IMG/VR virus record: IMGVR_UViG_3300005613_000085
Location: 1-52,128 of that record
Reading direction: 5' to 3' (one strand)
Length of the DNA: 52,128 bases
Source: a virus
The notes under the pieces are model-generated. The model did not search any database. It was not told where the DNA came from and was given only the letters and a program-made list of their open reading frames with translations. A program made the translations under genes and the position numbers. Positions 5,307 to 44,289 of the stretch are shown one piece after another. The stretch's first letter is position 1. Every line of letters begins with the position of its first letter.

Positions 5307-5307
5307 A

Positions 5308-20207: not shown

Positions 20208-23200
20208 GTGCCAACAACCACCACTTATTTATATTTTACAATGGACGACGATGACATTACTGGTGTTGTTGTTGATGATTTATCTCCTAGCGAAAACGAT
20301 GGTCAGTTAGGAGATGGATCGACAGCGTCTACTTACCCGGACTCTGTTCCGGGGATATTGGGTGAAGCACGGAGGTTCTATCAAGGTGATTGGATAGAAG
20401 TAGCAGATGCAAATACATTGGATTTCAGTGATGATCCTTTTAGTATTTCGTTGTGGTTGAAGGTTGCCGGTGACGCAGATACTTATCAGATTGGTGATCT
20501 TGTTACTAAATATGATGCAGCGAATAATACTGGATTTAATTTAACAGTAGTAGGTAATGAAAGTAATACTCGTAATATTTTCTTTGGTATTAATGATGCT
20601 CACCAAGATAGCGCTTGGGTAGAAAAAGCCCCTAAACACGACGATGAGACTTATATTCGCGCTCTTGCTGTTTTTAACGGTAAACTCTACGGAGGTACCA
20701 ACCCTAATAGTAACCTTTTAGAGTGGAACGGAACAAACGCCTGGGTAGAAAAAGCCCCTAAACATGACAGTGAGTCTAATATTCGCGCTCTTGCTGTTTT
20801 TAACGGTAAACTCTACGGAGGTACCTACCCTAATAGTAATTTAGTAGAGTGGAACGGAACAAACGCCTGGGTAGAAAGAGCCCCTAAACATGACGATGAG
20901 CAGTATATCCTCTCTCTTGCTGTTTTTAACGGTAAACTCTACGGAAGTACCATCAACGTTAATGGTAACCTTTTAGAGTGGAACGGAACAAACGCCTGGG
21001 TAGAAAAAGCCCCTAAACACGACGATGAGTCTGCTGTCAACGCTCTTGCTGTTTTTAACGGTAAACTCTACGGAGGTACCAGTGCCACTGGTGGTAATTT
21101 AGTAGAGTGGAAATCTGGGATAGGCGTGCAATATAACTATGCGCTCACTGCTGGTACCCACCATATCGTTGCTGTAAGAGATACAACAACATTAAAGCTT
21201 TATATAGATAAAGTTCTTGTCGGTACTTCTGATGCATTCACGCAAGCAGATTATGATGTTGATAACGCTGAAAAAGTAATGATTGGTGCGTATGGCCATA
21301 AAGTTATAGATGAATTACATATTTATAACCGAGCGTTGAATATGACCGAGATAGGTGTGTTGGAGGGGAGCTATAGTACGACATCGACTTCTACGACAAC
21401 GACATCCTCGATATCAACGATATCAACGATATCATCGACATCAACCTCTATATCATCAACATCCTCTTCATGTTCTACTTTATCAACAGACATAACAACA
21501 ACATCAACAGAAACAACATCATCATCATCTACCTGTTCTACTCTATCAACAGCATCAACAACACATACAACGGCATCGACTTCTTCAACTTCATCATCGT
21601 CTTGTAGTACACTGTCAACGGCCTCAACTCTCTCAACGACAACATCGACTTCTACTTCCACTTGTTCGACGTGTTCAACGTTATCGACCGCTTCGACTCT
21701 TTCAACAACAACATCAACTTCCACTTCCTCATCATCTACTTGTTCTACATTATCAACAGCTTCGACAGCTTCAACAACAAGCACAACTTCTTCTTCTACT
21801 TCTTCATCATGCTCGACTCTCAGTACGGCATCAACACTGTCAACGACATCGACTTCTACTTCAACTTCATCTTCATCATGCTCGACTCTTAGCACAGCAT
21901 CGACAGCTTCGACTTCATCTTCATCGTGCTCGACATTATCAACAGCTTCGACACTATCAACAACAACATCATCATTATCTACAACTTGCTCGACTTGCTC
22001 GACATTATCAACAGCTTCGACTTTATCAACAACAGCGTCATCATCTTCAACTACCTGTTCTACATGTTCGACTTTGTCAACGTTATCAACTCAATCTACA
22101 ACGTCCTCTTCGTCTTCTTCCACGTGTTCTACTTGCTCGACTCTTAGCACGGCACCTACATTAAGTACGACGACATCTTCTTCTTCAACTACTTGCAGTA
22201 CGTGTTCGACTCTCAGTACAGAATCGACACTATCAACGACATCGACTTCATCTTCAACTTCCTCCTCATCGTGTTCAACACTGTCAACGGTATCGACACT
22301 ATCAACGGCATCGACTTCTTCGTCTACAACGTGTTCAACTTGTTCGACGTTATCAACGGCATCGACATCCTCTTCATCTTCATCCACATGCTCAACTTGC
22401 TCGACTCTCAGTACAATATCAACTACATCTTCATCATCTTCATCCACATGCTCAACTTGCTCGACTCTCAGTACAATATCAACTACATCATCAACGTATT
22501 CAACAGCATCTACTTCATCTTCATCATGTTCTACATTATCAACAGCTTCGACGCTATCGACAACGTCTTCATCTACGTGTTCGACATCATCTACGTGTAG
22601 TACGTTATCGACGGCTTCGACACTGTCAACTACATCATCAACGTCTTCGACTACATGCTCAACCTGTTCGACTCTCAGTACATATTCAACATCTTCTTCT
22701 TCATCATCTACTTGTTCAACTTGCTCGACTCTTAGCACGCAATCAACTACAGCGTCAACGCAGTCTACAACATCCTCCTCCTCATCATCTACCTGCTCAA
22801 CTTGCTCAACTCTTAGTACGGCATCGACTTTATCAACAACATCGACTTCTACATCTTCTTCCTCATCCTCATCATCTACCTGTTCAACACTCTCCACTCA
22901 CAGTACGATATCGACAACGACATCCTCCTCCTCTTCTACTTCTTCTACCTGCTCAACGTTATCAACGGCGTCAACAACATCCTCTTCATTATCTACATCA
23001 TCGTCATGCTCGACTTGTTCAACACTATCTACTGATGTTACGACATCATCTTCCACATCATCTTCTTCATCCTCTACTTGTTCTACGCTATCAACACTAT
23101 CAACATCGTCTTCTTGCTCATCGACATCTTCATCTTGTTCAACACTCTCCACATACAGCACGGCATCAACAACGTCATCATCAACTTCAACAACAACTTC

Positions 23201-26200
23201 AACTTATCCTGTATGTGAATTAGATGATGATTTTGATAACCTCACGCATTGGATGATAGTAGAGAATTACGGTGGCACGGTTTCAACAGTCGGCGGTCAG
23301 ATGAGACTGACAATAGATAATGGTGCCAATAGAAATATAAGAGTTGCATTCGGCCATCAAATTCTCGCTGGCGATTTCGATGTTCAGATTGATGTAGCGG
23401 ATTGGATATTAACAGATAATAAAGAACTCCATGCGATATTTTGTATTGCTGATAAAACTCATGATAATTATTACCACGTAGGTATTGAGATTGAAGCCGC
23501 AGGTAGTGCGGAGGATTTCGTTGCAGAGTACCAAGAGAACGGCGGCGGAGAAGTAGAAATAGATAGAGACGATGACGTAGCTGATATAACAGGTTGTAAG
23601 CTAAGAGTTAAACGAGTCGGTACAGTTCTTCAAGGTTTCTATGACGCAGGTTCCGGTTGGGTAGCGATGACTTCCCGTGATATGGGAGCCTGGGCTGCGG
23701 AGCTTGTTTATGTTAATTGTGCTATACATGAACATGAAAATGTTGGCGGTTCTGTTGATTGGGATAATCTTCATTGGAACTTAGGCATATGCCCTGATCC
23801 TAATGGTTGGACAACGACAAGCACAACGACAAGTACAACAACATCGTGTTCGACCTGTTCGACTCTTAGTACAGCATCGACATTATCAACATCTTCAACA
23901 ACATCATCTTCAACTTGTTCAACCTGTTCGACCTTTAGCACAGAATCGACACTGTCGACAACATCGACTTCCTCTTCATCAACATGCTCTACATTGTCAA
24001 CTCAATCAACTTCCTCATCTACGTGCTCAACACTGTCAACAGTCTCGACTTCTTCTTCAACCTGTTCGACATGTTCTACTTCATCTACATGTTCGACATG
24101 CTCGACACTAAGTACAGCATCGACAGCTTCGACAGCTTCGACAGCTTCAACGTCATCCTCATCTTGTTCAACTCTTAGTACGACATCGACGGAATTAACA
24201 ACGTCGTCATCGACTTCCTGTTCGACGGCGTCTACACAGTCAACGGCATCGACACTATCAACTACATCATCCAGTAGTAGTACGTGTTCGACCTTATCAA
24301 CACTCTCAACATCTTCTACTTCCTCCTCCTCTTCATCATCCACTTGTTCAACTTGTTCTACGCTCTCAACAGCATCGACACAGTCTACAACATCATCTTC
24401 ATCCTCATCCACATGTTCTACTTGCTCTACACTTTCAACACTTTCAACATTATCAACGTCTTCCTCATCTACATGCTCCACTCTTAGTACGGAATCAACA
24501 ACCTCTTCATCTTCATCCACATGTTCGACGCTCTCAACGGCATCAACATTATCGACAACGTCTACTTCATCCTCATCTACATGTTCTACTTGCTCGACAT
24601 TATCAACAGCTTCAACACAATCTACAACATCATCCTCATCCTCATCCACATGTTCCACTCTCAGTACAGAATCAACAACCTCTTCCTCTTCATCTACATG
24701 TTCCACTCTCAGTACAGAATCAACAACCTCTTCCTCTTCATCTACATGTTCCACTCAATCAACGGCGTCAGGAAGCACAACATCAACATGTTCAACATGC
24801 TCAACTCTTAGTACACAATCTACTCAATCTACTCAATCTACAACGTCATCTTCATCCTCATCCACATGCTCTACTTGCTCTACATTATCGACACTATCAA
24901 CATCATCAACTTCATCAACTTCATCCTCATCGTGTTCAACTCTCAGTACAGAATCAACGACATCATCATCTACACTGTCAACGACATCATCAAGTAGCAG
25001 TACGCGTTCGACCTTATCAACACTCTCAACATCATCTTCTTCATCATCATCTACACGCTCGACTCTCTCAACCGCATCGACGACATCGTCATCTTCAACT
25101 TCATCTTCATCTACATGCTCAACTCTCAGCACAGAATCAACAACCTCCTCTTCTTCATCCACATGCTCTACATTATCAACAGTAACAGGAGTATCAACCT
25201 CATCCTCATCAACTTGTTCTACACTTTCAACATTGTCAACATCCTCTTCATCTACATGCTCAACTCAATCAACAGCATCAACAACGTCATGTTCTACTTG
25301 TTCTTCATCATCAACTTACACGACAATGACCACTTGGTCCTGCTCTTCTACATCATCCTCCACATGTTCAACGCTATCAATAGTTACAACCTCATCCACA
25401 ACACACACAACTGGGTCTACTTGGTCCTGTTCGACTACATCAACTTGCTCGACGTGTTCAACGCTATCAACACAATCAACTCAATCAACTTCTTCATCTT
25501 CATCTTCATCAACTTGTTCTACTTGCTCTACACTTTCAACACTATCAACATCCTCATCTACGTGCTCTACTCAATCTACGCTGTCAACGCTCTCAACATC
25601 TTCTACATCTTCTACCTGTTCTACTTCAATGTCATCGACATCCACATCGACCTCATCTACTCATACAACAACAACCACCTCTCCTCCTGCATATGACATT
25701 ACGATCCGCGAACTCGTTATCGCGGCAATAAAAACAAAAGTAGATGAAATCTCCCTGGCCAACGGCTACCGTAACGACATTGCCAACGTCGGTATCGGCT
25801 ACCGCTTCTGGGGTAAAAACGATCTCAATGCAATATCAATCTTACCCGGTACTGAAGACATCAATCACCAACTCGGTGTAAGATCAAATCCAATGCAAGT
25901 TACAATCCTCGGTTTCAGTGCATTCAATCCGTCATCAGAGAATCCCTCACCCGTAGCGGAACCTCTCTTGGCTGATATAAAGCACAATATCCTTGGATTG
26001 ACATTCCGAATCCCCTTCGTCCTCGGTCAGAACGAGCCAAGTCAAGGTGACTTACTCAGGGGTCAGACATCAGGGGCGACAGTAAGAATAATGAGAATCA
26101 ACCATACCACTGGTTCCTGGGCCCTTGGTAACGCCGGTGGTACATTCAGAGTCCGCGATATGCGTGGGTTCCTACTACATAATGAGAACCTTCTTAACTC

Positions 26201-26393
26201 TTCCGGTGTAGTAGTAGCAAAGGGCCAAACAATAGTCGTAGAAGACCGCTTCGGCGGCTATGTAACAACTGTAGATTATGTCACAGGTGGGATAGAGGGT
26301 TATCCTGAAGTAGGTGAAACGGCGATTGCTGTAACTGCAACGTTCTCTTTTACTTATATGACAATGAATGATAACCCGTATCTTCAACCTTAA
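20208..26393 (+). CDS. Giant mucin-like protein with C-terminal tail-terminator-like domain (2061 aa)
   Basis: Domains in order: LamG/concanavalin-like lectin (1-134 and 302-387) split by four kelch-like repeats (136-301); a Ser/Thr/Cys tract (389-999); a concanavalin-like domain (1000-1199, DDDFDNLTHW ... AGDFDVQIDVADW ... GGSVDWDNLHW); a second tract (1201-1825); and a C-terminal domain (1826-2061). The last opens ITIRELVIAAIKTKVDEISL and ends TATFSFTYMTMNDNPYLQP, the pattern of gpU-type tail terminators, and carries the module shared with the decoration protein. Gene position between Z and the tail tube is that of U. I infer a neck-anchored fibre with lectin tips. The GTG start at 20208 follows GAGAGGG. 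If the C-terminal reading is wrong, it is simply a giant tail fibre. Confidence 0.75.
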   Translation: MPTTTTYLYFTMDDDDITGVVVDDLSPSENDGQLGDGSTASTYPDSVPGILGEARRFYQGDWIEVADANTLDFSDDPFSISLWLKVAGDADTYQIGDLVTKYDAANNTGFNLTVVGNESNTRNIFFGINDAHQDSAWVEKAPKHDDETYIRALAVFNGKLYGGTNPNSNLLEWNGTNAWVEKAPKHDSESNIRALAVFNGKLYGGTYPNSNLVEWNGTNAWVERAPKHDDEQYILSLAVFNGKLYGSTINVNGNLLEWNGTNAWVEKAPKHDDESAVNALAVFNGKLYGGTSATGGNLVEWKSGIGVQYNYALTAGTHHIVAVRDTTTLKLYIDKVLVGTSDAFTQADYDVDNAEKVMIGAYGHKVIDELHIYNRALNMTEIGVLEGSYSTTSTSTTTTSSISTISTISSTSTSISSTSSSCSTLSTDITTTSTETTSSSSTCSTLSTASTTHTTASTSSTSSSSCSTLSTASTLSTTTSTSTSTCSTCSTLSTASTLSTTTSTSTSSSSTCSTLSTASTASTTSTTSSSTSSSCSTLSTASTLSTTSTSTSTSSSSCSTLSTASTASTSSSSCSTLSTASTLSTTTSSLSTTCSTCSTLSTASTLSTTASSSSTTCSTCSTLSTLSTQSTTSSSSSSTCSTCSTLSTAPTLSTTTSSSSTTCSTCSTLSTESTLSTTSTSSSTSSSSCSTLSTVSTLSTASTSSSTTCSTCSTLSTASTSSSSSSTCSTCSTLSTISTTSSSSSSTCSTCSTLSTISTTSSTYSTASTSSSSCSTLSTASTLSTTSSSTCSTSSTCSTLSTASTLSTTSSTSSTTCSTCSTLSTYSTSSSSSSTCSTCSTLSTQSTTASTQSTTSSSSSSTCSTCSTLSTASTLSTTSTSTSSSSSSSSTCSTLSTHSTISTTTSSSSSTSSTCSTLSTASTTSSSLSTSSSCSTCSTLSTDVTTSSSTSSSSSSTCSTLSTLSTSSSCSSTSSSCSTLSTYSTASTTSSSTSTTTSTYPVCELDDDFDNLTHWMIVENYGGTVSTVGGQMRLTIDNGANRNIRVAFGHQILAGDFDVQIDVADWILTDNKELHAIFCIADKTHDNYYHVGIEIEAAGSAEDFVAEYQENGGGEVEIDRDDDVADITGCKLRVKRVGTVLQGFYDAGSGWVAMTSRDMGAWAAELVYVNCAIHEHENVGGSVDWDNLHWNLGICPDPNGWTTTSTTTSTTTSCSTCSTLSTASTLSTSSTTSSSTCSTCSTFSTESTLSTTSTSSSSTCSTLSTQSTSSSTCSTLSTVSTSSSTCSTCSTSSTCSTCSTLSTASTASTASTASTSSSSCSTLSTTSTELTTSSSTSCSTASTQSTASTLSTTSSSSSTCSTLSTLSTSSTSSSSSSSTCSTCSTLSTASTQSTTSSSSSSTCSTCSTLSTLSTLSTSSSSTCSTLSTESTTSSSSSTCSTLSTASTLSTTSTSSSSTCSTCSTLSTASTQSTTSSSSSSTCSTLSTESTTSSSSSTCSTLSTESTTSSSSSTCSTQSTASGSTTSTCSTCSTLSTQSTQSTQSTTSSSSSSTCSTCSTLSTLSTSSTSSTSSSSCSTLSTESTTSSSTLSTTSSSSSTRSTLSTLSTSSSSSSSTRSTLSTASTTSSSSTSSSSTCSTLSTESTTSSSSSTCSTLSTVTGVSTSSSSTCSTLSTLSTSSSSTCSTQSTASTTSCSTCSSSSTYTTMTTWSCSSTSSSTCSTLSIVTTSSTTHTTGSTWSCSTTSTCSTCSTLSTQSTQSTSSSSSSSTCSTCSTLSTLSTSSSTCSTQSTLSTLSTSSTSSTCSTSMSSTSTSTSSTHTTTTTSPPAYDITIRELVIAAIKTKVDEISLANGYRNDIANVGIGYRFWGKNDLNAISILPGTEDINHQLGVRSNPMQVTILGFSAFNPSSENPSPVAEPLLADIKHNILGLTFRIPFVLGQNEPSQGDLLRGQTSGATVRIMRINHTTGSWALGNAGGTFRVRDMRGFLLHNENLLNSSGVVVAKGQTIVVEDRFGGYVTTVDYVTGGIEGYPEVGETAIAVTATFSFTYMTMNDNPYLQP
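20613..21111 (+). repeat. Four tandem kelch-like DNA repeats, 126-129 bp
   Basis: Copies begin at 20613, 20739, 20865 and 20994. Each encodes about 42 residues of the form WVEKAPKHDDE ... ALAVFNGKLYGGT ... LLEWNGTNA. Long blocks such as the VFNGKLYG codons are identical in all copies at the DNA level, indicating recent duplication. Four blades are too few for a full propeller, so they may pair with the surrounding lectin or oligomerise. Confidence 0.85.
21371..23205 (+). repeat. Ser/Thr/Cys tract 1, about 610 codons
   Basis: Almost every codon is TCN, ACN, TGY or AGY, with scattered Leu, Ala, Gln and Glu in a three-residue S-T-x rhythm (CSTCSTLSTASTLSTT). Third positions vary freely, so the amino acid pattern is maintained rather than a simple DNA repeat. 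A local exact duplication of about 50 bp at 22381 and 22441 shows ongoing expansion. Confidence 0.9.
23806..25685 (+). repeat. Ser/Thr/Cys tract 2, about 625 codons
   Basis: Same composition and S-T-x rhythm as tract 1, separated from it by a lectin-like domain. A 48-bp unit beginning at 24653 is repeated exactly at 24701. Towards the end the pattern loosens (TTMTTWSCSS, HTTGSTWSCS), with Trp and His. Confidence 0.9.
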
Positions 26394-26408
26394 ATAGGAG
26401 GTATTAAG

Positions 26409-27437
26409 ATGTTAGCTAATACTGCTGAAAATGGAGCATTATATTACGAAGCTTCACAAGCAGTTACAGCAATGACAGCGTTGACGGATTCCGGAGACCA
26501 TCAACTCTTTACGTCTGCTGTAACTCTGTGGTCCGAGCGATCTGGTTATTCACCAGTTGTTCGCCCGGACGGAATGATCTCCGGTGGTATCGTTATACCT
26601 GAAGCATCGGGTCCGGATAATGATGAAGTCGATGTCAGCGCAGGTACATGTTATCTAGTCGGTGTTTCTACTTCTGTAGTTGCTGTGTCTGGTGTAACAT
26701 CATTAGTCTGTGCGAGAACCGCTGATGCTGCCAATAAATGTATCATCACATCAATTATCGTTACTGCTGCTGGTGCTTATGACGTTCTACAAGGAACTAA
26801 AGGTGCTGCATTATCAACGACTCGTGGCGCTGCTGGTGGTCCACCGCTGCTCACTGTTGGTGTTATTGAAGTCGCACAAGTTAAATACACCTCTGAAGCT
26901 GTTGGTGCTGTTCTTGAATCTGAGATCTTTCAAGTACCCGGCGTAAGTCAAGAGCGATATGATTACCCGTTATGGGAAGTTCATAACGGTAGAGACCAGG
27001 CCGGTGATATTCCCGGTGGCTGTGTCAAGCTCTTGTCTGCTATTACTGCTGATCACGTCGGGCCAGTTGCTAAGGCCGTATATGCTTCTTACGCTGAACC
27101 AGCTTTTGCTGAAAACCGACCTGTATCTGACTTTGTGCCACCTACCAATGCCCATAGCGTTTCGTCTAAACAAGTCTATAGCGGAACTATTGGATCTCGT
27201 TCGTCCTCATTAAACCAAGGATCATTTACAGCGTTTTTATCCAACGGTGTTAATGACGCTTTAATGCGACTCAAAGATGAAATCCTCTGGTTTAAATTCT
27301 ATCCGGATCGCTATAAAACACCGTATGTTCTTACTCAAGGTAAACTCGGGGTTGTTCCTTCTTACCCCGCTGATGATTCAATCACCGCTGCATGTACAAT
27401 TTCGGCTGCTGAAGCCGCTGTTAATGTAGATGCATAA
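26409..27437 (+). CDS. Major tail tube protein candidate
   Basis: The 342-residue protein sits where lambda gpV (tail tube) is found, directly before the G/GT chaperone pair. It is rich in Ala, Val, Thr and Ser with beta segments (ISGGIVIPEASGPDNDEVDV, KCIITSIIVTAAGAYDVLQG) and ends DSITAACTISAAEAAVNVDA. I do not recognise the sequence family, so the assignment rests on gene order and composition. It begins after TAGGAGG, a strong site expected for an abundant protein. Confidence 0.6.
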   Translation: MLANTAENGALYYEASQAVTAMTALTDSGDHQLFTSAVTLWSERSGYSPVVRPDGMISGGIVIPEASGPDNDEVDVSAGTCYLVGVSTSVVAVSGVTSLVCARTADAANKCIITSIIVTAAGAYDVLQGTKGAALSTTRGAAGGPPLLTVGVIEVAQVKYTSEAVGAVLESEIFQVPGVSQERYDYPLWEVHNGRDQAGDIPGGCVKLLSAITADHVGPVAKAVYASYAEPAFAENRPVSDFVPPTNAHSVSSKQVYSGTIGSRSSSLNQGSFTAFLSNGVNDALMRLKDEILWFKFYPDRYKTPYVLTQGKLGVVPSYPADDSITAACTISAAEAAVNVDA

Positions 27438-27454
27438 TAAGGAGTGAATAAGTC

Positions 27455-27928
27455 ATGCCTTTTGATTTAAAGAAATTTCAAGGCGCGACTTTTACCCCTA
27501 GAGAGGAGCTTGTGGAGGTTAAAGATCTCCACGAGTTCTTCCCCAAAGGGGAAAAGCCGTTTATTAAAGTTCGTGGGTTAGAGGGTCCGGAGCTTGCACA
27601 GGTTCACGAAGCGCTCAGTAAAAACAAAAACATATCTAAATTAGTAGACGGACTGTTGTCTTCTCAATCAACTGAGCTGTTAGCGTCCGTTCAAGAGGCA
27701 ATCGGTGTTACAGATAAAACACCTAACGAGATTGCTAAGAGATTAGAAATGATGGTTATCGGATCGGTAGAACCGAAATTCACCATGGACATGGCTGTGA
27801 AGTTCTGCCGTGTCTGGCCTATTGAGTTTTATTCTGTCACTAATGTTATTAGTAGATTAACCGGGCAGGGCATGTTGCCGGGAAAATCCAAGCCCTCTGG
27901 GACGACCCCGAAGTCAAAGCGTGCTTAG
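27455..27928 (+). CDS. Tail assembly chaperone, gpG-like
   Basis: The 157-residue protein, starting after AAGGAG, corresponds to gpG. It is largely helical (LAQVHEALSKNKNISKLVDG, TPNEIAKRLEMMVIG) and ends in the disordered GKSKPSGTTPKSKRA. In lambda-like phages it binds the tape measure and prevents its aggregation until tube assembly. Near its end lies the slippery heptamer at 27880-27886, from which a minority of ribosomes would make the longer GT form. Confidence 0.82.
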   Translation: MPFDLKKFQGATFTPREELVEVKDLHEFFPKGEKPFIKVRGLEGPELAQVHEALSKNKNISKLVDGLLSSQSTELLASVQEAIGVTDKTPNEIAKRLEMMVIGSVEPKFTMDMAVKFCRVWPIEFYSVTNVISRLTGQGMLPGKSKPSGTTPKSKRA

Positions 27929-28089
27929 GGCTGGCTTGGAAATGGAACATGCCGATGTTTAAAGTTCGCCCGGACTTGTTTCCAGAGGGGTATTTGACGA
28001 CGACAGAAATTATCTTATGGGGTAGATATATTGATCAGAAAGGTAAGAAGGGTAAGAAGAATATGAATGTGAATATGAATATAGGATGA
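27455..28089 (+). CDS. Frameshifted tail assembly chaperone, gpGT-like
   Basis: Slipping back one base at G-GGA-AAA (27880-27886) joins the first 144 codons of the G frame to 67 codons of the -1 frame, stopping at TGA 28087-28089. The added part reads IQALWDDPEVKACLGLAWKW and onward to TTTEIILWGRYIDQKG, a real-looking helical domain unlike random sequence. It would be the T domain that links G to tail tube subunits. The frame has no start of its own and fills the 160-bp gap before the tape measure gene. Product about 211 residues. Confidence 0.8.
27880..27886 (+). other. Programmed -1 ribosomal frameshift site GGGAAAA
   Basis: The heptamer reads G GGA AAA in the chaperone frame, fitting the X-XXY-YYZ rule and differing only in the last base from lambda's GGGAAAG at the equivalent gene junction. 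The -1 frame is open from here to 28089. Confidence 0.82.
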
Positions 28090-28093
28090 CATT

Positions 28094-31000: not shown

Positions 31001-32068
31001 GGAGAAGAGCAAATACAGATAATGGAGGAGACTGCACAGTCGTTTGAAGATCTCAAAAGCGAAATAGAAGAAACAATTAGTGCGTTAGATGATTACCTCG
31101 AAAAGATGGAAGAGATAACAGATGCCATAGATGATCAAGAAGATAGTGTGGATGAGTTAGAACGAGAGTTAGCACAGTACGAAAAGGCTTTAAAGCGCAT
31201 TGAAGATGGTATTAGTACCGAACAGATAGAGAAAGATTTAGAGAGAATTCGTAACGAGATTAAAGAGGTCGAGAGAGAACTTGACTACCTCTACAGTCAA
31301 CCTTATTCCCCTGAAAATGAAGCTAAGATTAAGAAGTTAGAGAGAGAATTAGAGTATTTAAAAAGAGAAGAAGATATACTTAATAAGACCATGGAAGACA
31401 GCGCAGCGGCCAGAGAAGAGTTCGAGCGCAAGATCCTGGACTTAAAAAAAGAGATTTGGGAAGCACAAAAAGAAATCAATGATCTAGCTGGTGACTTACC
31501 CGATGTCATAGGCGATGCATCTAAAGAGTGGGATGAATGGATGGGTAAGATTGGTGATGCTAAAGAGCGCCTTCGAGAACTTTACGACATGGGGTTGATC
31601 AGTAAAGCAGAATTTGATCTGGCAATGAAATATCTCAATGAGTTAGAACAGAAAGTTACAGGGTTTTTAGATGAACTTGAAGCTATGGGCATCGAAGATG
31701 TAGAGGAGATACAAAGAGAAACAGGGGAGAAGCAGCTTAGGGCGATAGAAGCACTTAAAGCTGAAATAAGAGCACAGACAGCAACATTAGAAGCATATCT
31801 TGATGAACAAATGGCCCTGCAATCTCAGTTAATTCATAAACAAATGGAACTGGTTGATGCTCAAATAGAACAAATAGAAGCCCGGACAGCTATGATGAAG
31901 AAGGGCGACAGTATGATAAAGATTCAAGGCGACGGGCTGGAACCGGAACTCGAAGCTTTTATGTGGAAAATACTTGAAAACTTACAAGTCAGGGCCAATC
32001 AAGAATTCAGCGAATTCCTCATTGGTCTCCGCGGTCTTAACCTAACATCGACGACAGGATCATTATAA
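28094..32068 (+). CDS. Tail tape measure protein
   Basis: The 1324-residue protein sets tail length; at the usual 0.15 nm per residue the tail would be about 200 nm. The conserved PhageMin tail domain occupies about 80-290 (LSREFGVALEDVIQSVIEFK, ETAGLATKVIEVFQSGEEAA, QVQISAWLVGNRQAQKMV). Residues about 640-930 contain repeated DG-containing beta/alpha units (VKILLDGIDVFYDALDKIQ, VKFVLDGITKALKDIETL). A very long acidic coiled coil follows to about 1280. No peptidase or lysozyme domain was recognised. It begins four bases after the GT stop codon. Confidence 0.92.
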   Translation: MANIARTVEILFSAKDQMSMKLTGINQALELLEKTVNALLDPLAQLGDAIIEVDKVIAGYARTLGSDVLDASMDLESVLIDLKRLLGEQTEQFDDLVEASRELSREFGVALEDVIQSVIEFKRANFDAKESLDLTREALTLVRVGFVDMHTATESLVKILKGFGAEADKANEIVDILSITSNTYATNVEKLAIGMGELAPIASKVGFSMAETAGLATKVIEVFQSGEEAATALKTGFTRLATGSAQVQKAYDKLKISGKDANGMLKDGKTMLGEIAAAMGKFTEAEQVQISAWLVGNRQAQKMVDIFTDYDKVIKIGIKALSDRQYAEKQLVEVMKATKFQLEKMETGWIELKAAMGDEFLPVLSLILQGLHEIETALTDTVNEGVLKDIADRLLKYGDEIKKYLQGIATAIPEALKGVDVGPLLDSWDNVASTLSKVFDTAKIENAEDLAEKVQVLVNAMTLLVNITNGMIKPWTDLTNKLLETIPILAEVEGEVATSFGNILGHVQMIKKMGFIWYGVYRAMGNDVETFQDRAVLVADKIAKKQAEEKIHLLKKQEAWDSVLSYIEGRLYNLTLGLDDSSKRTYEWTLRHRESLKKLEEAEKKFTETFVGNKGEYTKALEEQRKANEETEKSFGTLIKEGEEYSLTIEELASEINDLPQLAEIDIKTKTPIPELNEELIEYGITIKELPDGKVIVVTTELEPEADWNKVDAIWNARRAAMNTSIDLTFEIDTHTLDRVVTSANKAINEGIPTEKSVKILLDGIDVFYDALDKIQYELEEVEPTKEVEARLTEVKAFREKLNSMVKLLDEAPSAHNVKFVLDGITKALKDIETLQEKLDATPKNVKIDVEVDGVEEAIASFDGLHVKIGETPEEVEVKVKVDEKSFEAVTKRIDALAKHANEKLKLEATINVAEIEAAASAMVASIEAEANKAIAVINSLASSIAAVSNNVGGMFSSLVGLYDRIIDLGEEQIQIMEETAQSFEDLKSEIEETISALDDYLEKMEEITDAIDDQEDSVDELERELAQYEKALKRIEDGISTEQIEKDLERIRNEIKEVERELDYLYSQPYSPENEAKIKKLERELEYLKREEDILNKTMEDSAAAREEFERKILDLKKEIWEAQKEINDLAGDLPDVIGDASKEWDEWMGKIGDAKERLRELYDMGLISKAEFDLAMKYLNELEQKVTGFLDELEAMGIEDVEEIQRETGEKQLRAIEALKAEIRAQTATLEAYLDEQMALQSQLIHKQMELVDAQIEQIEARTAMMKKGDSMIKIQGDGLEPELEAFMWKILENLQVRANQEFSEFLIGLRGLNLTSTTGSL

Positions 32069-35000
32069 TGCAAATGAAATTAATAATAACAACATTGAAT
32101 ATGGATCTCAACAGTCCACTGATGTTGAACGTCGATGTCAGTGACTCTGAGTTAGAGGTATTGACAAGGAGAGTTAATAGAAGTGCGACACTTGATACTG
32201 GGAGTGTGATTGATGATCATGGGTTCTCTCAGGGTGATAGGGATTTGGTGTTTAGGATCAGTGATGCCAGTGAGAGTGATATTACGAAGTTGAAATACTT
32301 TTTGCAGAGGTATTCGGAGTTAAGGATAGCATTTAACGAGGGGATCTTCCTTGTTAATTTCAATAAGATGGATAATGACTTTGGTGATGTGGTATTGACT
32401 TTTTTTGTGAGTGAAGTAATTGTACTGTGCCAAAGATATCCAGTTGTTTATACAACAACGACAAGCGCAACGACTATATCAACGACAACTACAACGACAA
32501 CAGTAGATTTTGACTGTGAGTACGATGATTTAACATTCGATGATGCTAATAAATGGAATCTAAGTAATGGAGCTGTACTTGCCGGTAATAAACTAACATT
32601 CAGCCCTAGAGGTAACGCTGTTTATGTATATACACCTTCAGACGAAGCTAATTACTGTATTGAAGTTCGTGTATCTGATTTTATATGTGATGATCCTTAC
32701 TCAGGTACGGGTCCAACTTTTGCTTTTCAAGTAGATGGTAAGTTCCGAAGATGGACAACTGAAGAAACATATGTTAGATGGACTGGTAATGAGAGTAAAA
32801 CATGGTGGAGAAAGCCTGGTGGCGGTGGTTGGTTCCCTGTAACTCATCATAGAACTATAAAACGAAAGTATACACGCACAATTTACCACTACTCTGGTTA
32901 TAAGGGTTATGCTCGAATACGGTGTTATCCTATATTTGATTGGAGTGCAAAGGAACATCGATACGCAGTGGATATGGAATGGTATCAAATTGGTTTAGTA
33001 CCCTATAGTGAGCGAACGAGCTATACCGCTCCTAAAATAGTAACCACAGTACCTTCGCTATTTAGAATTCAAAGGTCTGGTAATTTAATAGGTGGGTACT
33101 TCTATAGTGATAACAGTTGGACATTAATAGGATCGCGGGATTTTGAAACTAGACACCTTAAAGAAATACGGTTAATAGGAGATACAACTTTTCGAGGCGG
33201 CGGTTCTGTAAGTGTTGATCGTCTTAGATTTGTTACATGTCTTGGTACGGGCAGGTTAGCCTGGTGTAATGCCGGTGACGATATCATGTCTTCTATGGAT
33301 CATTGGAAAGTTATTAGTCAGTCCGGGGGTGGCACAGCTACAGCCGGAGAAACTGACGGTCTTTTATTAACTCTTCCTAGCGGTATCCAACCTCCGGGAT
33401 CTCCATCAGAAGTCACTATACTACATCAGTACGTGACAGATGCTGTTCTAGGTACAGAGAATGCAACAGAGTTTATTGTAGATATAGCCGCAATTACATC
33501 TGATAGTGCCGATTTTAACAATAGTGACACTTACACCTACCGTAGTTGTATGTTAAGGATTAAATGGTCAGACCCTCTTATACCCACGAATTATACAATT
33601 GTAGATATAGATAGATCAGGTACTAACGAAGACCCGTCATATTGGAGATGTAGGGTACGTACATACCATTTAGGGGTGCTTGAACTTGATAGTTACGCGG
33701 AGTATGGCTGCCCCTTAGAGGGTGCCGATGCTGGTATGGGGGAGATTAGAATTAGACGAGAAACATACGATATATATGACTGCGTTTCCGTATGGTGGAC
33801 TCCTACGATCTCTGAGGATGAAGATAGTGCACCTAATGATGCTGGTGTTTTAAGTGAAGAGAATAGCACTTGGTTAAATGTAGCTAACCCTGTAGATACA
33901 CCAGATGCGTATACGACATTAGTTCACGGTGTAGGTGAGTATAAAGATTTTGAATTACAAGGTATTGCCGGTCAAGATAGTGGAACTATAGTATTAGATG
34001 GGCTGACAACTGATGCTGGTTGTCCAGGATGTGATACACCAGCGTTAACACAATGGACAACAACAACGACATCATCAACGACATCGAGCTGTAGTACCAC
34101 AGAGTCAACAGCATCGACATCCTCATCCTGCTCAACGATATCAACTTCATCTTCAACCTGCTCGACAATGTCAACTTCATCTTCAACCTGCTCGACAATA
34201 TCGATTTCATCATCTTCATCATCTTCATCATCTTCTTGCTCAACTCAATCATCACTCTCATCAACATCAACCTACCCAACATGCCCTTACGATGACGGTT
34301 TTACAACATTCGACCTTTGGCAAGTAACAGACAAAGAAGATGGCAGTGAGACAGCGACGATCATTGGGAACAAACTACGATTAACACTAGCACATGACCC
34401 GGAAACACATCCTAGTTCAGCTATAACAATAGCATACAAATACCTACTTCCTACTGGTGATTTTAAAATAACATTGAAGTTCTCTGATTTTGTCACCGCT
34501 GGTTATTATAAACCTACATTTTACTTCAGAGCGCAGTCGGAAGATGAAGACGATAATATGATCGAAGGGGAAGTAACCGGTAAAGACAGGACTTTTGATG
34601 TTAGCTGTCGTTACTGTGGATCATCTACTTCTGATGGATGGACATTAGGTGCTGACGACGATCAAATATGTCTTGCTCGTGTCGGTAATGTCTTATCTGT
34701 ACATACTGGTAAAGATGGCATATGGACTGATTCATGGTCTAAAGATGTCATAGAGTGCGCACAGCACATAGATAGATTATACATTAAGCTGTTTGATTAT
34801 TATTCAGATGGTGGATCAGTTGATATAGATGAATTAGAATTCTGGTATGGCTGCCCTACGGGGTCCGCGACGGTATGGACATCTACAACAACATCGACAA
34901 CGTGTTCGACTGCAAGTACGTCAACGTTGTCATCTACTTGTTCAACGCTGTCAACGTTGTCAACAACCAGCTCGACGATATCAAGTACGTCATCATCTTG

Positions 35001-36792
35001 TTCGACATGTTCTACTTGTTCGACTTGTTCAACACTATCAACAGCATCTACACTATCAACGGCATCTACGTTATCAACGACCAGTTCAACAACGTCATCA
35101 TCTTCATCTACGTGTTCGACGTGTTCGAGCTGTTCAACTTGTTCGACTTGCTCAACTTGTAGTACGCTATCAACGCTATCTACAATTAGTACAACATCTT
35201 CATCATCCTCTTCGACTTGCAGTACGCTATCGACGCTGTCAACGACAAGTTCATCGTCATCATCAAGTACCTGCTCAACGTGTTCGACTTGTTCAACGAT
35301 GTCTACAGAATCGACTACATCATGCTCGACGTGTTCGACTTGTAGTACATTATCGACACTGTCAACGACTTCTTCTTCATCTTCGACTTGTTCGACTTGT
35401 TCAACACTGTCTACGGAATCAACAACCTCTTCTTCTTCTTCAACCTGTTCTACATTGTCAACGCATAGTATAACAACGACATCGAGTTCAACACAATCAA
35501 CGATGTCAACATCAACATCATCTTGCTCGACTTGTTCAACGGCATCGACTGTATCAACGCAGTCTACAACATCATCTTCTTGCTCTTCAACATGTTCGAC
35601 ATTGTCAACGTTATCGTCATGTTCGACTTGCTCGACATGTTCTACTTGTTCGACTTGCTCAACCTGTTCAACGTGTTCAACACTGTCTACATCATCATCA
35701 TCTTGCTCTACTTGCTCGACATTATCTACACTTAGTACGACATCAAGTTCTACATGTTCTACATGTTCAACATGTTCAACACTGTCAACGATATCAACTA
35801 CGTCGAGTTCGACTTGTTCAACATCATCAACTACATCATCCTCGACGTGTTCGACTTGTTCAACATCATCAACTACATCGTGCTCTACATGTTCGAGCTG
35901 TTCAACGTGTTCAACACTATCAACTAATTCGACAACGTCATCTTCGTCTTCGTCTACTTGTTCGACTCTCTCAACGCAGTCAACATCCTCATCCTCTTCC
36001 TCGACATGCTCGACTCTCAGTACGCATTCAACGTCCTCTTCTTCCACGTCAACTTGCTCTTCACTCTCAACAACATCTACTTACCCTACTTGTGAATACG
36101 ATGAAGACTTCGACTCTGGTGTTGGTGACTGGAAAGTAGTTTATACCTATATAGGTACAGAGACTATGACAGCCGTAGGTAATAAACTAAGATTGACTGT
36201 AGTAGATTCTAATGGGAGTGGAATACAAACTAACTATCTATATAAAGTACCTGCTGGTGATTTTGATGTACAGGTAACAATATCTAACTTCGTGTTTAAC
36301 GGCGATGATAGACTTCGGGCTGCTTTAGGGGTCGTAGCTACTAATCAGCATTTTGATAACTCAACGGGTTTTGTGATTAAATCGTACCCAACAGATCCTA
36401 CAGATAATGTAGATGTTTTATGTAGTCGTTATTTAGACGGTGGTACCAGTTCAGGTAATTGGGATAGTGATATAGGGGCCTTCACTACACTGTCACTTAG
36501 AATTACGCGAGTAGGTACAACTATGAAGGGTTATTACCAAAAAGACTCGGGTTCTTGGGTCTTAAGTTGGTCAACTGAACATGAAGATATGACATTAGCT
36601 GATAGGGTTATCTTAGCATTACGGGAATACAACGGTGGCAATGACGGTGGTTCGGTTGATTTCGATAATCTGAAGTTTAATAAAGCAGAGTGTCCGACTG
36701 GAGATACCTGGTCAACTACAACGACATCAACAACATCAAGCTCCACTTGTTCAACCTATTCAATAACTACAACAACAGAGGCACCACCATAA
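32068..36792 (+). CDS. Distal tail protein with four lectin-like domains and Ser/Thr/Cys tracts (1574 aa)
   Basis: Residues 1-127 form a compact tail-type domain that probably docks on the tail tip. A Thr linker (128-148) follows, then a concanavalin-like domain (149-395), a second beta domain (396-662), a tract (663-734), a lectin-like domain (735-935), a tract (937-1337), a lectin-like domain (1338-1547) and a short Thr/Ser tail ending EAPP. The lectin-like units share a frame: CxYDxxF, a G-N-K-L-R-L-T strand, the GDF(D/K)(V/I) strand, GGSVD-(F/I)-D-(N/E)-L near the end, and Cys at both borders. This recalls DUF1349-like folds. ATG overlaps the tape measure stop. Likely role: host or glycan binding at the tail tip. 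Confidence 0.72.
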   Translation: MQMKLIITTLNMDLNSPLMLNVDVSDSELEVLTRRVNRSATLDTGSVIDDHGFSQGDRDLVFRISDASESDITKLKYFLQRYSELRIAFNEGIFLVNFNKMDNDFGDVVLTFFVSEVIVLCQRYPVVYTTTTSATTISTTTTTTTVDFDCEYDDLTFDDANKWNLSNGAVLAGNKLTFSPRGNAVYVYTPSDEANYCIEVRVSDFICDDPYSGTGPTFAFQVDGKFRRWTTEETYVRWTGNESKTWWRKPGGGGWFPVTHHRTIKRKYTRTIYHYSGYKGYARIRCYPIFDWSAKEHRYAVDMEWYQIGLVPYSERTSYTAPKIVTTVPSLFRIQRSGNLIGGYFYSDNSWTLIGSRDFETRHLKEIRLIGDTTFRGGGSVSVDRLRFVTCLGTGRLAWCNAGDDIMSSMDHWKVISQSGGGTATAGETDGLLLTLPSGIQPPGSPSEVTILHQYVTDAVLGTENATEFIVDIAAITSDSADFNNSDTYTYRSCMLRIKWSDPLIPTNYTIVDIDRSGTNEDPSYWRCRVRTYHLGVLELDSYAEYGCPLEGADAGMGEIRIRRETYDIYDCVSVWWTPTISEDEDSAPNDAGVLSEENSTWLNVANPVDTPDAYTTLVHGVGEYKDFELQGIAGQDSGTIVLDGLTTDAGCPGCDTPALTQWTTTTTSSTTSSCSTTESTASTSSSCSTISTSSSTCSTMSTSSSTCSTISISSSSSSSSSSCSTQSSLSSTSTYPTCPYDDGFTTFDLWQVTDKEDGSETATIIGNKLRLTLAHDPETHPSSAITIAYKYLLPTGDFKITLKFSDFVTAGYYKPTFYFRAQSEDEDDNMIEGEVTGKDRTFDVSCRYCGSSTSDGWTLGADDDQICLARVGNVLSVHTGKDGIWTDSWSKDVIECAQHIDRLYIKLFDYYSDGGSVDIDELEFWYGCPTGSATVWTSTTTSTTCSTASTSTLSSTCSTLSTLSTTSSTISSTSSSCSTCSTCSTCSTLSTASTLSTASTLSTTSSTTSSSSSTCSTCSSCSTCSTCSTCSTLSTLSTISTTSSSSSSTCSTLSTLSTTSSSSSSSTCSTCSTCSTMSTESTTSCSTCSTCSTLSTLSTTSSSSSTCSTCSTLSTESTTSSSSSTCSTLSTHSITTTSSSTQSTMSTSTSSCSTCSTASTVSTQSTTSSSCSSTCSTLSTLSSCSTCSTCSTCSTCSTCSTCSTLSTSSSSCSTCSTLSTLSTTSSSTCSTCSTCSTLSTISTTSSSTCSTSSTTSSSTCSTCSTSSTTSCSTCSSCSTCSTLSTNSTTSSSSSSTCSTLSTQSTSSSSSSTCSTLSTHSTSSSSTSTCSSLSTTSTYPTCEYDEDFDSGVGDWKVVYTYIGTETMTAVGNKLRLTVVDSNGSGIQTNYLYKVPAGDFDVQVTISNFVFNGDDRLRAALGVVATNQHFDNSTGFVIKSYPTDPTDNVDVLCSRYLDGGTSSGNWDSDIGAFTTLSLRITRVGTTMKGYYQKDSGSWVLSWSTEHEDMTLADRVILALREYNGGNDGGSVDFDNLKFNKAECPTGDTWSTTTTSTTSSSTCSTYSITTTTEAPP
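34056..34271 (+). repeat. Ser/Thr/Cys tract 3, about 72 codons
   Basis: Short S/T/C tract between the second and third globular domains of the 1574-residue protein, including a run of Ser codons (SSSSSSSSCS type). A 30-bp unit encoding STSSSTCSTM/I is duplicated near 34140-34200. Confidence 0.85.
34878..36080 (+). repeat. Ser/Thr/Cys tract 4, about 400 codons
   Basis: Same S-T-x rhythm as the tracts in the 2061-residue protein but richer in Cys, with seven successive C-S-T units around 35610-35680. Ser is mostly TCN, with AGT recurring after Leu or Cys. Confidence 0.9.
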
Positions 36793-37409
36793 TGCCAATA
36801 CTCAAAGTAAAATTCACAGCTCAAATCCTCTCTACTTCCCAAGGCACTCTCACTCTCCCCATCTCTTCCTTCTCCGCTCGCATCTCCCTCACCGCTGAAG
36901 GCCGATCAACACGAGTCTATCAGCCCGGCGTATCTTCCGCTGTATGGTCTCAATACATGCGACCGGTCGTCTCCACTTCTCTTTCTCTCGTTGTCCCAGG
37001 CTACAATCACCTCTCAGATATATCACTGCGGATCTCTGACGGGTATATTAAAATAACTAAATGGATTAACAACAAACCAACAATACTAGGCAACGTGCCT
37101 ATAAAAACCCCACGCACAGACACAGGGTCCAAATCCAATTCAATCACACTCTCCGGCGAACTTGTCTCCTATCCGTTCACAATCACATCACTACCTACAA
37201 ACGAAGTCGAAATCACAAACTACAATTACATAAGACAATCAGTATCCACAGGCGTTCGCTGTGGATTAAATAACAACATCAACATCGGTGAATTCATGCT
37301 CATCGATACCGTACCTTACCGAGTGACTCAGATATCTATTTGGGACTCTGAAGCATACGGAACCATGGAGTTAACATCACAGCCAATATCCTTTGGCTAT
37401 GTAAATTAA
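36792..37409 (+). CDS. Putative minor tail protein (205 aa)
   Basis: A 205-residue beta-rich protein beginning PILKVKFTAQILSTSQGTLT and containing YNYIRQSVSTGVRCGLNNNI and FMLIDTVPYRVTQISIWDSE. The latter looks like the small beta-barrel seen in tail-tip proteins. The start codon overlaps the stop of the 1574-residue gene (TAATG), so the two are made together. It has no Ser/Thr tract and its codon third positions are C-rich at the start, unlike its neighbours. No family is recognised. A tail-tip or baseplate role is inferred from position. Confidence 0.6.
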   Translation: MPILKVKFTAQILSTSQGTLTLPISSFSARISLTAEGRSTRVYQPGVSSAVWSQYMRPVVSTSLSLVVPGYNHLSDISLRISDGYIKITKWINNKPTILGNVPIKTPRTDTGSKSNSITLSGELVSYPFTITSLPTNEVEITNYNYIRQSVSTGVRCGLNNNINIGEFMLIDTVPYRVTQISIWDSEAYGTMELTSQPISFGYVN

Positions 37410-37421
37410 GGAGGGGATACA

Positions 37422-38507
37422 ATGCCAAAATTTAATGACTACCCAGATGGTAATCCCCATTGGATTGATTATGTTTTATTCTATGATCAGACTGACGGGA
37501 AGGTTAAAAAGTGTCATATAGAACAGATACTTGAGTTAGCCGGGCTGACCAGTACATCAACAACGACGACATCGAGTTCGAGTTCGAGTTCATGTTCATC
37601 ATGTTCGAGCTGCTCAACCTGTTCGACGTGTTCTACGTGTTCTACGTGTTCTACGTGTTCGTCTTCTTCATCTTCTTCTTGCTCTTCGTGCTCAAGTTGC
37701 TCTACTTGTTCCTCCTGTTCGACGTGTTCTAGCTGTTCATCATGCTCAACTTGTTCTTCGTGCTCAACTTGTTCGACCTGTTCGACTTGTAGTACGATGT
37801 CCACCCATTCTACAACGTGCTCTACTTGCTCGACTTGCAGTACGATGTCTACGGCATCGACTTCTTGTTCTACTTGCTCAACTTGCAGCACGGCGTCTAC
37901 AGCATCAACCTCTTGCTCAACTTGCAGCACGGCGTCTACAGCGTCAACCTCTTGCTCAACTTGCAGTACAATATCTACGGCATCAACTTCTTGTTCTACT
38001 TGCTCGACGTGCTCGACGTGCTCAACAATATCCACAGAGTCAACTACCTGCTCGACTTGCTCGACATATTCGACTCTTAGTACAACATCAACAACGTCAT
38101 CCTCATCTTCATCTACCTGCTCTACCTGCTCAACTCTATCAACGGCATCAACTACCTGCTCTACCTGCTCAACTCTATCAACGGCATCAACTACCTCATC
38201 CACATGCTCAACTTGTTCAACATGTTCAACTTGCTCTACTTCATCGACTTGCTCAACCATATCAACAGCCTCTACATCTTCTTCTACATGTTCAACATTA
38301 TCAACACAATCAACTTCATCTTCTTCATGCTCCACATCCTCAACATGCTCTACTCTTAGCACACAGTCAACCACTTCATCTTCTACCTCATCATCCTGTT
38401 CTACTTCTTCAACTATATCAACTCTATCAACTACCTCTTCCTGCTCATCTACATGCTCTACAATGTCAACGGAATCGATAACAACTACATCAGAGGATCA
38501 CGGTTAA
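37422..38507 (+). CDS. Cys-rich Ser/Thr fibre-like protein (361 aa)
   Basis: Residues 1-42 form a small folded head (NPHWIDYVLFYDQTDGKVKK, then a helix) like the N-terminal virion-binding part of some tail fibres. Residues 43-355 are an unbroken Ser/Thr/Cys tract, with long runs of C-S-T or C-S-S, so Cys falls at every third position over tens of residues. No globular tip domain follows; it ends SEDHG. An AAGGAGGGG site precedes ATG 37422 and a strong terminator follows. It could be a short side fibre, a spacer bound by other proteins, or a metal- or disulfide-cross-linked rod. Confidence 0.7.
   Translation: MPKFNDYPDGNPHWIDYVLFYDQTDGKVKKCHIEQILELAGLTSTSTTTTSSSSSSSCSSCSSCSTCSTCSTCSTCSTCSSSSSSSCSSCSSCSTCSSCSTCSSCSSCSTCSSCSTCSTCSTCSTMSTHSTTCSTCSTCSTMSTASTSCSTCSTCSTASTASTSCSTCSTASTASTSCSTCSTISTASTSCSTCSTCSTCSTISTESTTCSTCSTYSTLSTTSTTSSSSSSTCSTCSTLSTASTTCSTCSTLSTASTTSSTCSTCSTCSTCSTSSTCSTISTASTSSSTCSTLSTQSTSSSSCSTSSTCSTLSTQSTTSSSTSSSCSTSSTISTLSTTSSCSSTCSTMSTESITTTSEDHG
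37548..38490 (+). repeat. Ser/Thr/Cys tract 5, about 314 codons, Cys-dense
   Basis: C-S-T/C-S-S units dominate the first half. Local duplications of 33 bp occur near 38128-38190 and of similar size near 37885-37960 (GCAGCACGGCGTCTACAGC twice), showing recent unit gain. Confidence 0.88.
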
Positions 38508-38647: not shown

Positions 38648-39622
38648 ATGTTTAGGACCATTGAGATTGCAGTAATAACGTTATTAAGTACCATTGCTTT
38701 ATTAGTATCTACAGTTCACATTTGCCCTGCTGGTCAGCCGGAAACTGGTCCCGGCAGTGCCACCTATGCCCATGATAGTGTTCGTCACAGCGAACATGGA
38801 CGAGGAGCTAAAGCTTATCATTTATACGAGCCTGATGAACCTCGCCTGGAATCTGCCCCAATGATCGTGTTCCTTCACGGACTGTTCGGAACAATGCCTA
38901 TGGTTTATGGTGGATGGATTAAACACATAGTAAAAAAAGGTAACATCGTTGTGTTTCCAATCTATCAGTCTCTATTTAGTGGTATTAATGATGTAGTGTT
39001 CTCCAAGAACGCCGCAGTGTCAATTAGAGATGCTATTGAGACGTTAGAGACTAGGCCTGAATTAGATAAAGTAGCATTTGTTGGGCACTCCGCAGGGGGG
39101 TTTCTCGCTGTGAACATTGCAGCCAGTGCTGCTGAATTTGGAGTACCAGCACCCAGAGCAATTATGTGTGTTGCCCCGGGTAAATCACCCATGTTTAGGC
39201 TCAGGCATTTAGATCAAATTGACCCGAGTACACTACTATTGTCTCTTGCTGGGGACAAGGATATAATCGTGGGGAGGAAAGACCCGAAGGCTATATTCAA
39301 CAAAACACCTCAAATTGCTAACCGTAATTACATCCTTGTTAATTCGAGTAGAGGGTTGTCGGCTAATCACTTTGCAGCACTGACAATAGGCTGTGATAAC
39401 ATCGACTACTATGCGTATTGGAAACTATTCGATGGGTTATATAGTGCCGCGTTCTATAATATCTACTGGGAATACTGCTTAGGTGACACTCCGGAACAAA
39501 GGTACATGGGGGTTAGTAGGAGAGGCAGGCCTTATGAAGAATTAACTGTTACATTACCGGACATGTTACTCAGCTATCCGACAACCGACGACGAGTGTAG
39601 TAAATGTCATGATAAATCTTAG
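38648..39622 (+). CDS. Exported alpha/beta hydrolase (moron candidate)
   Basis: The 324-residue protein starts with a signal peptide (basic MFRT, hydrophobic core about 6-22, Cys at 26). The hydrolase core shows the oxyanion region FLHGLFG (75-81), the nucleophile elbow GHSAGG (Ser148), an acid in AGDKD (about 203-205) and His241 in SANHFAAL, all in catalytic order. The size suits lipases or chlorophyllase/PHB-depolymerase-like esterases. The last residues contain CSKCH (317-321), the CxxCH heme c attachment motif, in a short tail after the fold; this could be coincidence. Own promoter and flanking terminator point to a gene expressed during lysogeny or early infection and acting outside the cytoplasm. 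Substrate unknown. Confidence 0.72.
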   Translation: MFRTIEIAVITLLSTIALLVSTVHICPAGQPETGPGSATYAHDSVRHSEHGRGAKAYHLYEPDEPRLESAPMIVFLHGLFGTMPMVYGGWIKHIVKKGNIVVFPIYQSLFSGINDVVFSKNAAVSIRDAIETLETRPELDKVAFVGHSAGGFLAVNIAASAAEFGVPAPRAIMCVAPGKSPMFRLRHLDQIDPSTLLLSLAGDKDIIVGRKDPKAIFNKTPQIANRNYILVNSSRGLSANHFAALTIGCDNIDYYAYWKLFDGLYSAAFYNIYWEYCLGDTPEQRYMGVSRRGRPYEELTVTLPDMLLSYPTTDDECSKCHDKS

Positions 39623-41169: not shown

Positions 41170-41231
41170 GAAACCTATGCGATATTTTTAGAAAATTAGA
41201 TTATGTATACATTAATGAAGGAGTTAATTTT

Positions 41232-41815: not shown

Positions 41816-41847
41816 TTATAATATTTTATAAAACTAAGGAGTAATAC

Positions 41848-44288: not shown

Positions 44289-44289
44289 A

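Follow-up and report, generated by a model that had tools for sequence, protein, structure and literature searches.

Three described systems come closest to the one reported here. The serine-rich repeat proteins (SRRPs) of Gram-positive bacteria are served by GtfA/GtfB and further glycosyltransferases, as set out in PMC7948813 and PMC6973325. Metazoan mucins, with their dense Ser/Thr tracts, are paired with the polypeptide GalNAc-transferases (GalNAc-Ts; CAZy GT27; PMC4202792), the animal enzymes by which their glycosylation is initiated. In mycobacteriophages, phage-encoded glycosyltransferases glycosylate virion proteins (Freeman et al. 2023, cited in PMC12619734), with the glycans at the C-termini of capsid and tail-tube subunits. 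Here we describe IMG/VR virus record IMGVR_UViG_3300005613_000085 (52,128 bp, the whole of the analysed stretch, called the window below), in which three virion proteins carry very long tracts composed mainly of Ser, Thr and Cys and a gene cassette encodes several glycosyltransferases, among them two copies of a GT2 enzyme. Every record examined, the window included, may be a fragment. Such tracts and one travelling set of glycosyltransferases occur together in dozens of other uncultured phages and point to a previously undescribed sugar-coated phage brush. To our knowledge, glycosylation of phage virions is known from few cases and few residues, and no phage mucin-like system was found in the open-access literature, of which coverage was partial.

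As in the SRRPs, which are glycosylated within the cell, a very long Ser/Thr-rich tract goes together with dedicated glycosyltransferases (for which intracellular action is proposed here) and forms a stalk bearing a domain of ligand-binding type. Unlike in the SRRPs, the carriers are phage neck, tail and fibre proteins, and a GalNAc-T-like GT2 is present. A profile of GT-B1, the first cassette enzyme, retrieved generic GT4 enzymes only and no GtfA/GtfB structure from the PDB at E up to 10, and no dedicated export system was seen, nor was an accessory Sec component (SecA2/Asp) recognised among the genes of the possibly incomplete window by Pfam and PHROGs scans and by reading. The likeness to metazoan mucins and GalNAc-Ts lies in the dense Ser/Thr tracts and in a predicted GT2 fold with DxH, a later His that aligns with the metal site and, in part, the GGE stretch; the differences are the missing ricin lectin domain, the missing Golgi, an identity of ~15% and the family (PF00535). 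Pro is common in mucin tandem repeats, whereas the window tracts are nearly without it (7 of 2081 residues), and the Pro-rich PTS repeats of mucin-like domains were not found in them. Unlike in the glycosylated mycobacteriophages, the sugars are proposed to sit on tracts hundreds of residues long, carried by the neck, tail-tip and fibre proteins. Multidomain proteins of phages and bacteria also have spacers rich in Thr and Ser between their beta domains, but the window tracts are many times longer, occupy three virion sites and are tied to a glycosyltransferase cassette.

A preliminary description of the window had reported five long tracts of about 610, 625, 72, 400 and 314 codons and two short linkers, made almost only of Ser, Thr and Cys. 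All of them are present, with the following extents:

21369-23216, plus strand: Ser/Thr/Cys tract 1, 616 codons
23811-25682, plus strand: Ser/Thr/Cys tract 2, 624 codons
32452-32502, plus strand: short Thr-rich linker
34036-34284, plus strand: Ser/Thr/Cys tract 3, 83 codons
34852-36093, plus strand: Ser/Thr/Cys tract 4, 414 codons
36691-36777, plus strand: short C-terminal Thr/Ser tail
37548-38492, plus strand: Ser/Thr/Cys tract 5, 315 codons

Counted with the short C-terminal and linker stretches, the five tracts total 2081 residues, of which 930 are Ser, 677 Thr, 195 Cys, 112 Leu and 51 Ala (45% Ser, 33% Thr, 9% Cys and 5% Leu). Ser, Thr and Cys together account for 87%, and Ser plus Thr alone for 77%, so that in length and in the dominance of Ser/Thr the tracts resemble mucin-like domains. 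The window's other plus-strand genes contain 6.0% Ser, 6.2% Thr and 1.3% Cys, a difference that excludes chance. The repeat unit is S-T-X, where X is mostly Leu, Cys, Ala or Gln, and Cys rises to 17% in the fibre tract. All six Ser and all four Thr codons are used, which argues for a constraint on the protein rather than a simple DNA satellite. AGY serine codons are depleted, and many tandem units of 48-81 bp are 75-98% identical, making recent tandem duplication evident. Antisense open reading frames over the tracts (e.g. 22091-22897 and 34800-36047) were rejected as genes and are by-products of stop-free repeats.

The carriers had been placed at the neck, the tail tip and a fibre position of the virion, and this assignment is borne out by gene context. 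The window has an intact siphophage-type structural operon with, in order, TerL (phrog_15), portal (phrog_21), protease (phrog_53), major capsid protein (phrog_29), neck protein (phrog_27), tail tube (phrog_30644, named from its gene position) and tape measure (phrog_1533), as assigned with PHROGs, and all three tract-carrying genes lie inside it. No tail sheath was recognised in the structural module of the window. The carrier genes and their domains are:

20208-26393, plus strand: neck protein, 2061 aa, with LamG carrying kelch-like repeats, tract 1, a ConA-like domain, tract 2 and a tail terminator
20208-21368, plus strand: Laminin_G_3 (ConA-like) domain (PF13385, E=5.1e-13), interrupted at ~20612-21112
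23199-23795, plus strand: ConA-like lectin-fold domain copy 1 (domain alignment)
25692-26390, plus strand: tail terminator domain
32068-36792, plus strand: tail protein, 1574 aa, directly after the tape measure, with three tracts and several ConA-like domains
34267-34857, plus strand: ConA-like lectin-fold domain copy 2 (domain alignment)
36076-36696, plus strand: ConA-like lectin-fold domain copy 3 (modelled, pLDDT 81)
37422-38507, plus strand: fibre protein, 361 aa, a 42-aa N-terminal adaptor followed by tract 5

The terminator domain by itself matches tail-terminator PHROGs only at E=0.18; its assignment follows from 34% identity to a free-standing gene of the related phage G001, which matches phrog_4204/phrog_5078 tail terminator. 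The 1574-aa tail protein has a conserved tail N-terminus, and its ConA-like domains flank the tracts of 83 and 414 codons; a search with this single protein found nothing. The inter-tract domain aligns in 13 copies from three phages. Its AlphaFold2 (AF2) model has a predicted local distance difference test (pLDDT) score of 81 and a predicted TM-score (pTM) of 0.84, and Foldseek matches it to legume lectins, Emp46p and the ConA-like domains of GH16 and GH43 at E ~1e-6 to 1e-7. The modelled fold thus supports the lectin-like domains of the preliminary description as a ConA-like/legume-lectin jelly roll, in addition to the Laminin_G_3 domain at the N-terminus of the neck protein; sugar binding is putative. 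The interruption in that LamG domain (20612-21112) consists of four inserted 126-bp repeats, 86-95% alike, that encode kelch/propeller-like 42-aa units.

Related phages were collected in several ways. A tail-tube search retrieved G001 (L129, 61,963 bp), a scan of IMG/VR with the motif STASTLSTT retrieved G003-G007, and a scan with SSSSTxSTxST had G002 and G008 among the matches listed. A scan of IMG/VR for a Cys-rich STC pattern showed no second Cys-rich tract phage among the matches listed, which were chance matches and collagen-like antisense, and no tract was among the matches listed when bacterial genomes were scanned with STASTLSTT. The three virion positions that bear tracts in the window also bear Ser/Thr tracts in G001 and G003, where Cys is at most 2%, and the tracts of the other tract phages likewise contain 0-2% Cys. 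The description of the tracts as almost only Ser, Thr and Cys therefore holds for the window and fails, as regards Cys, as a shared design: Ser/Thr is what the phages have in common, with Cys at X specific to the window phage. In G001 and G003 the head-tail attachment protein (Phage_attach, E=3.9e-8 and 2.5e-5) carries the neck tract as a C-terminal fusion, and the tail terminator has a gene of its own. The window's attachment gene (18868-19215) lacks a tract, and it is the terminator that bears the tract module. This indicates that the module has been attached to different neighbouring neck proteins. No tract is present in L130 or L131, which are likewise tail-tube relatives.

The glycosyltransferase-like and methyltransferase genes noted earlier in the window were mostly confirmed by Pfam and homology. 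The cassette has the gene order GT-B1, GT-B2, methyltransferase, GT-A-like and GT2, the last in two copies in the window. Together with the related genes elsewhere in the window it comprises:

39886-41169, plus strand: GT-B1, a GT4-like glycosyltransferase (Pfam, homology)
42246-43433, plus strand: GT-B2, a GT4-like glycosyltransferase (Pfam, homology)
43626-44288, plus strand: cassette methyltransferase (homology)
44290-45114, plus strand: GT-A-like protein, without Pfam match, its family from homology and reading only
45424-46461, plus strand: GT2, GalNAc-transferase-like, copy 1 (Pfam, profile)
46458-47474, plus strand: GT2, GalNAc-transferase-like, copy 2 (Pfam, profile, model)
47474-47971, plus strand: methyltransferase adjoining the cassette, for which the other tract phages yielded no homologue
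11817-12512, plus strand: a further GT2-like gene, with homologues in G002, G006 and G007
10601-11119, plus strand: methyltransferase (Methyltransf_11)

Homologues of the cassette at 29-54% identity (blastp) stand in fixed order in G001-G004, G006 and G007, those of G007 lying at the edge of its contig. No blastp match links the window to a terminase, portal or capsid of G002, G004, G006 or G007. By PHROGs, G002 has TerL phrog_38 and portal phrog_113, and G004 and G007 have TerL phrog_9; a major capsid protein of phrog_29, a broad family, is common to the window, G004 and G007. The cassette thus recurs in tract phages with other packaging families, which indicates that cassette and tracts travel together between phage backgrounds. 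No convincing transmembrane segment is present in any cassette protein, as fits an action on virion proteins in the cytosol.

The GT2 enzymes resemble polypeptide GalNAc-Ts. A profile of seven GT2 sequences matched GalNAc-Ts in the PDB at E 1e-4 to 8e-3 (GALNT10 at E=1.1e-4, PGANT9, TgGalNAc-T3, GALNT4 and GALNT12). The AF2 model, made for copy 2 at 46458-47474 only, has a pLDDT of 82.6 and a pTM of 0.85; its best 45 Foldseek matches in the PDB are all GalNAc-Ts, with E down to 1.8e-13 and a query TM-score (TMq) of 0.53-0.67, and the first match of another kind is TarS at rank 46. All seven GT2 sequences share D118, H120 and H246 (positions in the 46458 protein), which align with the DSH (DxH) motif and the SHVGH His of PGANT9. 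In GalNAc-Ts, DxH and the later His are the Mn ligands; their counterparts here are putative ligands by alignment. Where GalNAc-Ts have IWGGEN, the motif of the Gal/GalNAc-T segment, GT2 has GIYGGGEN or GIYSGGEH. The GT2 catalytic domain is thus predicted to be a GT-A domain with a fold most like that of GalNAc-Ts, and peptide Ser/Thr may be its acceptor, with UDP-GalNAc as donor.

An equal occurrence of such tracts in phages lacking glycosyltransferases had been named as an outcome that would speak against a glycosylated brush; the survey was run in both directions and the link held, in counts that take in related phages and are not phylogenetically independent. Genes of GT2 type (PF00535) and of GT4 type (PF13692) were both present in all seven of the tract contigs whose context was sufficient, a count that leaves out G005 (no glycosyltransferase, the tract gene running off the contig end) and G008 (15 kb). 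Both types occurred in 4 of the 38 comparison contigs G011-G048, which are chance pattern matches and not random phages. In the reverse direction, a scan of IMG/VR seeded with GT-B1 alone gave 55 loci, 41 of them with same-strand Ser/Thr tracts: 28 with a tract of at least 40 aa in the flanks and 13 with a tract elsewhere on the contig, recognised by a strand-specific pattern or an earlier finding. A looser tract rule adds two more. The tract gene often lies directly upstream of GT-B1 (e.g. L426, L427, L433, L435, L441, L443, L456, L463 and L473). Among the 55 loci, GT2 was detected at 35, GT-B2 at 26, GT-A at 25 and the methyltransferase at 24. Gene order is the same throughout, and many loci are not long enough to contain the complete cassette. 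After clustering of GT-B1 at 70% identity, tracts are found in 28 of 40 clusters. As a control, 18 contigs of terminase relatives were considered and 15 retained (at least 20 kb, a near-copy of G001 excluded); neither GT-B1 nor a tract was found in any of the 15. Tracts with GT-B1 (41/55) and without it (0/15) differ at Fisher p=1.1e-7, relatedness ignored. No match to GT-B1 or GT2 was found by tblastn at E 1e-5 in 50,697 records of cultured phages, and no cassette in 25 diverse bacterial genomes. Among 395 genomes from the phylum of Desulfonatronum, one prophage (G313:C2:353932-370000) encodes GT-B1 and a GalNAc-T-like GT2, and the tail gene that follows its tape measure holds a Thr/Glu-rich tract; this is one hint of a host group.

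Taken together, these results support a glycosylated virion brush, as first proposed, and we consider phage-encoded cytosolic O-glycosylation of mucin-like virion stalks the probable explanation. The tracts would be acceptor stalks, and the soluble cassette enzymes (39886-47474) would glycosylate their Ser/Thr residues in the host cytoplasm, either ahead of virion assembly or while it proceeds. Of these enzymes, the two GalNAc-T-like GT2 copies would most likely be the ones that modify the peptide itself; the GT-B and GT-A enzymes would lengthen the glycan, which the methyltransferase may cap. Stiffened by their glycans, the tracts would project as a brush from the head-tail joint, the tail tip and the fibre and hold the ConA-like lectin domains away from the particle. 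Glycosylated mucins span ~0.25 nm per residue, so a 600-residue tract would reach ~150 nm; tail terminators are usually hexameric, and if this one is, six tract arms would surround the neck. The benefit may be adsorption in glycan-rich surroundings, and possibly shielding. Cys at many X positions of the window's S-T-X units might, speculatively, serve for disulfide cross-links or S-linked sugars.

Several observations weigh against this explanation. GT2 (338-345 aa, matched by Pfam GT2 models only) has no C-terminal ricin-type lectin domain and for this reason is not filed as GT27; its TM-scores to GalNAc-Ts, taken on PDB structures only, are moderate at ~15% identity; its N-terminus is weakly nearest to GtrB-like O-antigen conversion proteins (PHROGs, E=0.004); GT-B1 contigs without tracts exist (G082, 43 kb; G076, 34 kb; G071, 30 kb); and the GT-B1 and GT2 of the prophage are accompanied by a short Thr/Glu tract only. 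The GtrB-like match, the weak PHROGs matches of the GT-Bs to a moron glycosyltransferase family and the location of one cassette pair in a prophage would suit glycosyltransferases that modify the host envelope, in serotype conversion or superinfection exclusion, with tracts as plain spacers that co-occur with them through glycan-coated hosts. We regard this as unlikely: the cassette enzymes have no membrane-spanning segment, no flippase or acyltransferase was recognised beside the cassette, the same-strand cassette and tract gene adjoin and recur as a pair across packaging backgrounds, and the closest solved folds to GT2 act on peptides.

Somewhat less probable still is an origin of the tracts as unmodified low-complexity linkers, their composition drifting as TCN-ACN repeats slipped in replication. 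The many tandem units of high identity fit such slippage, and a depletion of AGY codons is expected if TCN-ACN units multiplied; but all Ser and Thr codons are used, the frames stay open across 616 and 624 codons, phages with ~35-60% core identity have tracts at corresponding places in their proteins, and relatives without the cassette have none. Given 195 Cys in 2081 residues and the enrichment in the fibre tract, the window tracts could mainly be disulfide-cross-linked cables, in which Cys, recurring at each third position of S-T-C runs, would build a covalent network upon release, with Ser/Thr as mere spacers. This is very improbable, since at 0-2% Cys the tracts of G001, G003 and the other tract phages cannot share a function in cross-linking. 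Some phages encode glycosyltransferases that act on DNA (PMC12619734 and work cited there), and hypermodification of phage DNA bases would be another use for the enzymes, yet we give it hardly any credence: no pyrimidine hydroxymethylase was recognised in the window's gene list, the cassette is linked to structural genes that carry tracts, and GT2 is predicted to fold like a GalNAc-T.

Some further features were noted. Four related contigs, G063, G064, G065 and G068 (277, 224, 142 and 113 kb), carry the GT-B1/GT2 pair and 48-100 or more strand-specific Ser/Thr-run pattern matches each, apparently a far larger version of the window's tract design. An alpha/beta hydrolase (chlorophyllase/lipase-like) with an N-terminal hydrophobic segment is encoded at 38648-39622, between the gene of the fibre tract and the cassette. 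A tandem array of a 6-bp unit (ACGGAG-type, ~37 copies) at 41573-41831 is open in two frames, coding for Asp/Thr/Glu (DTETDT) or Gly/Asp/His/Asn repeats. The gene at 14301-14894, earlier read as sulfotransferase-like, did not hold up as such (PF17784 at E=0.19 only); it encodes a small P-loop-like protein with the motif GTGRCGT. Left of the terminase, two large tail-hub-like genes occupy 3411-8001; homologues of 5284-8001 lie in the tail modules of G001 and G003, which indicates that the window genome is rearranged or circularly permuted. The terminase gene of G002 (L239:1-1611) is apparently interrupted by an intein-like (Hint) insertion.

More tentatively, and with rather less confidence than in glycosylation of the stalks, the cassette and tracts could be a mobile, self-contained mucin-type O-glycosylation system with its own initiating peptide glycosyltransferase, closest to animal GalNAc-Ts, passed as a module between phage lineages and attached to any available neck or tail protein, the Cys version being a cross-linkable brush in the window phage. 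If phage-encoded glycosylation of the stalks is true, phages possess a mucin-like brush of their own and a compact, soluble bacterial route to dense O-glycosylation exists, and a widespread, modular stalk-coating system would explain the unexplained glycosyltransferases of many environmental phages. It would also suggest that an enzyme class usually regarded as animal has a relative in viruses of prokaryotes.

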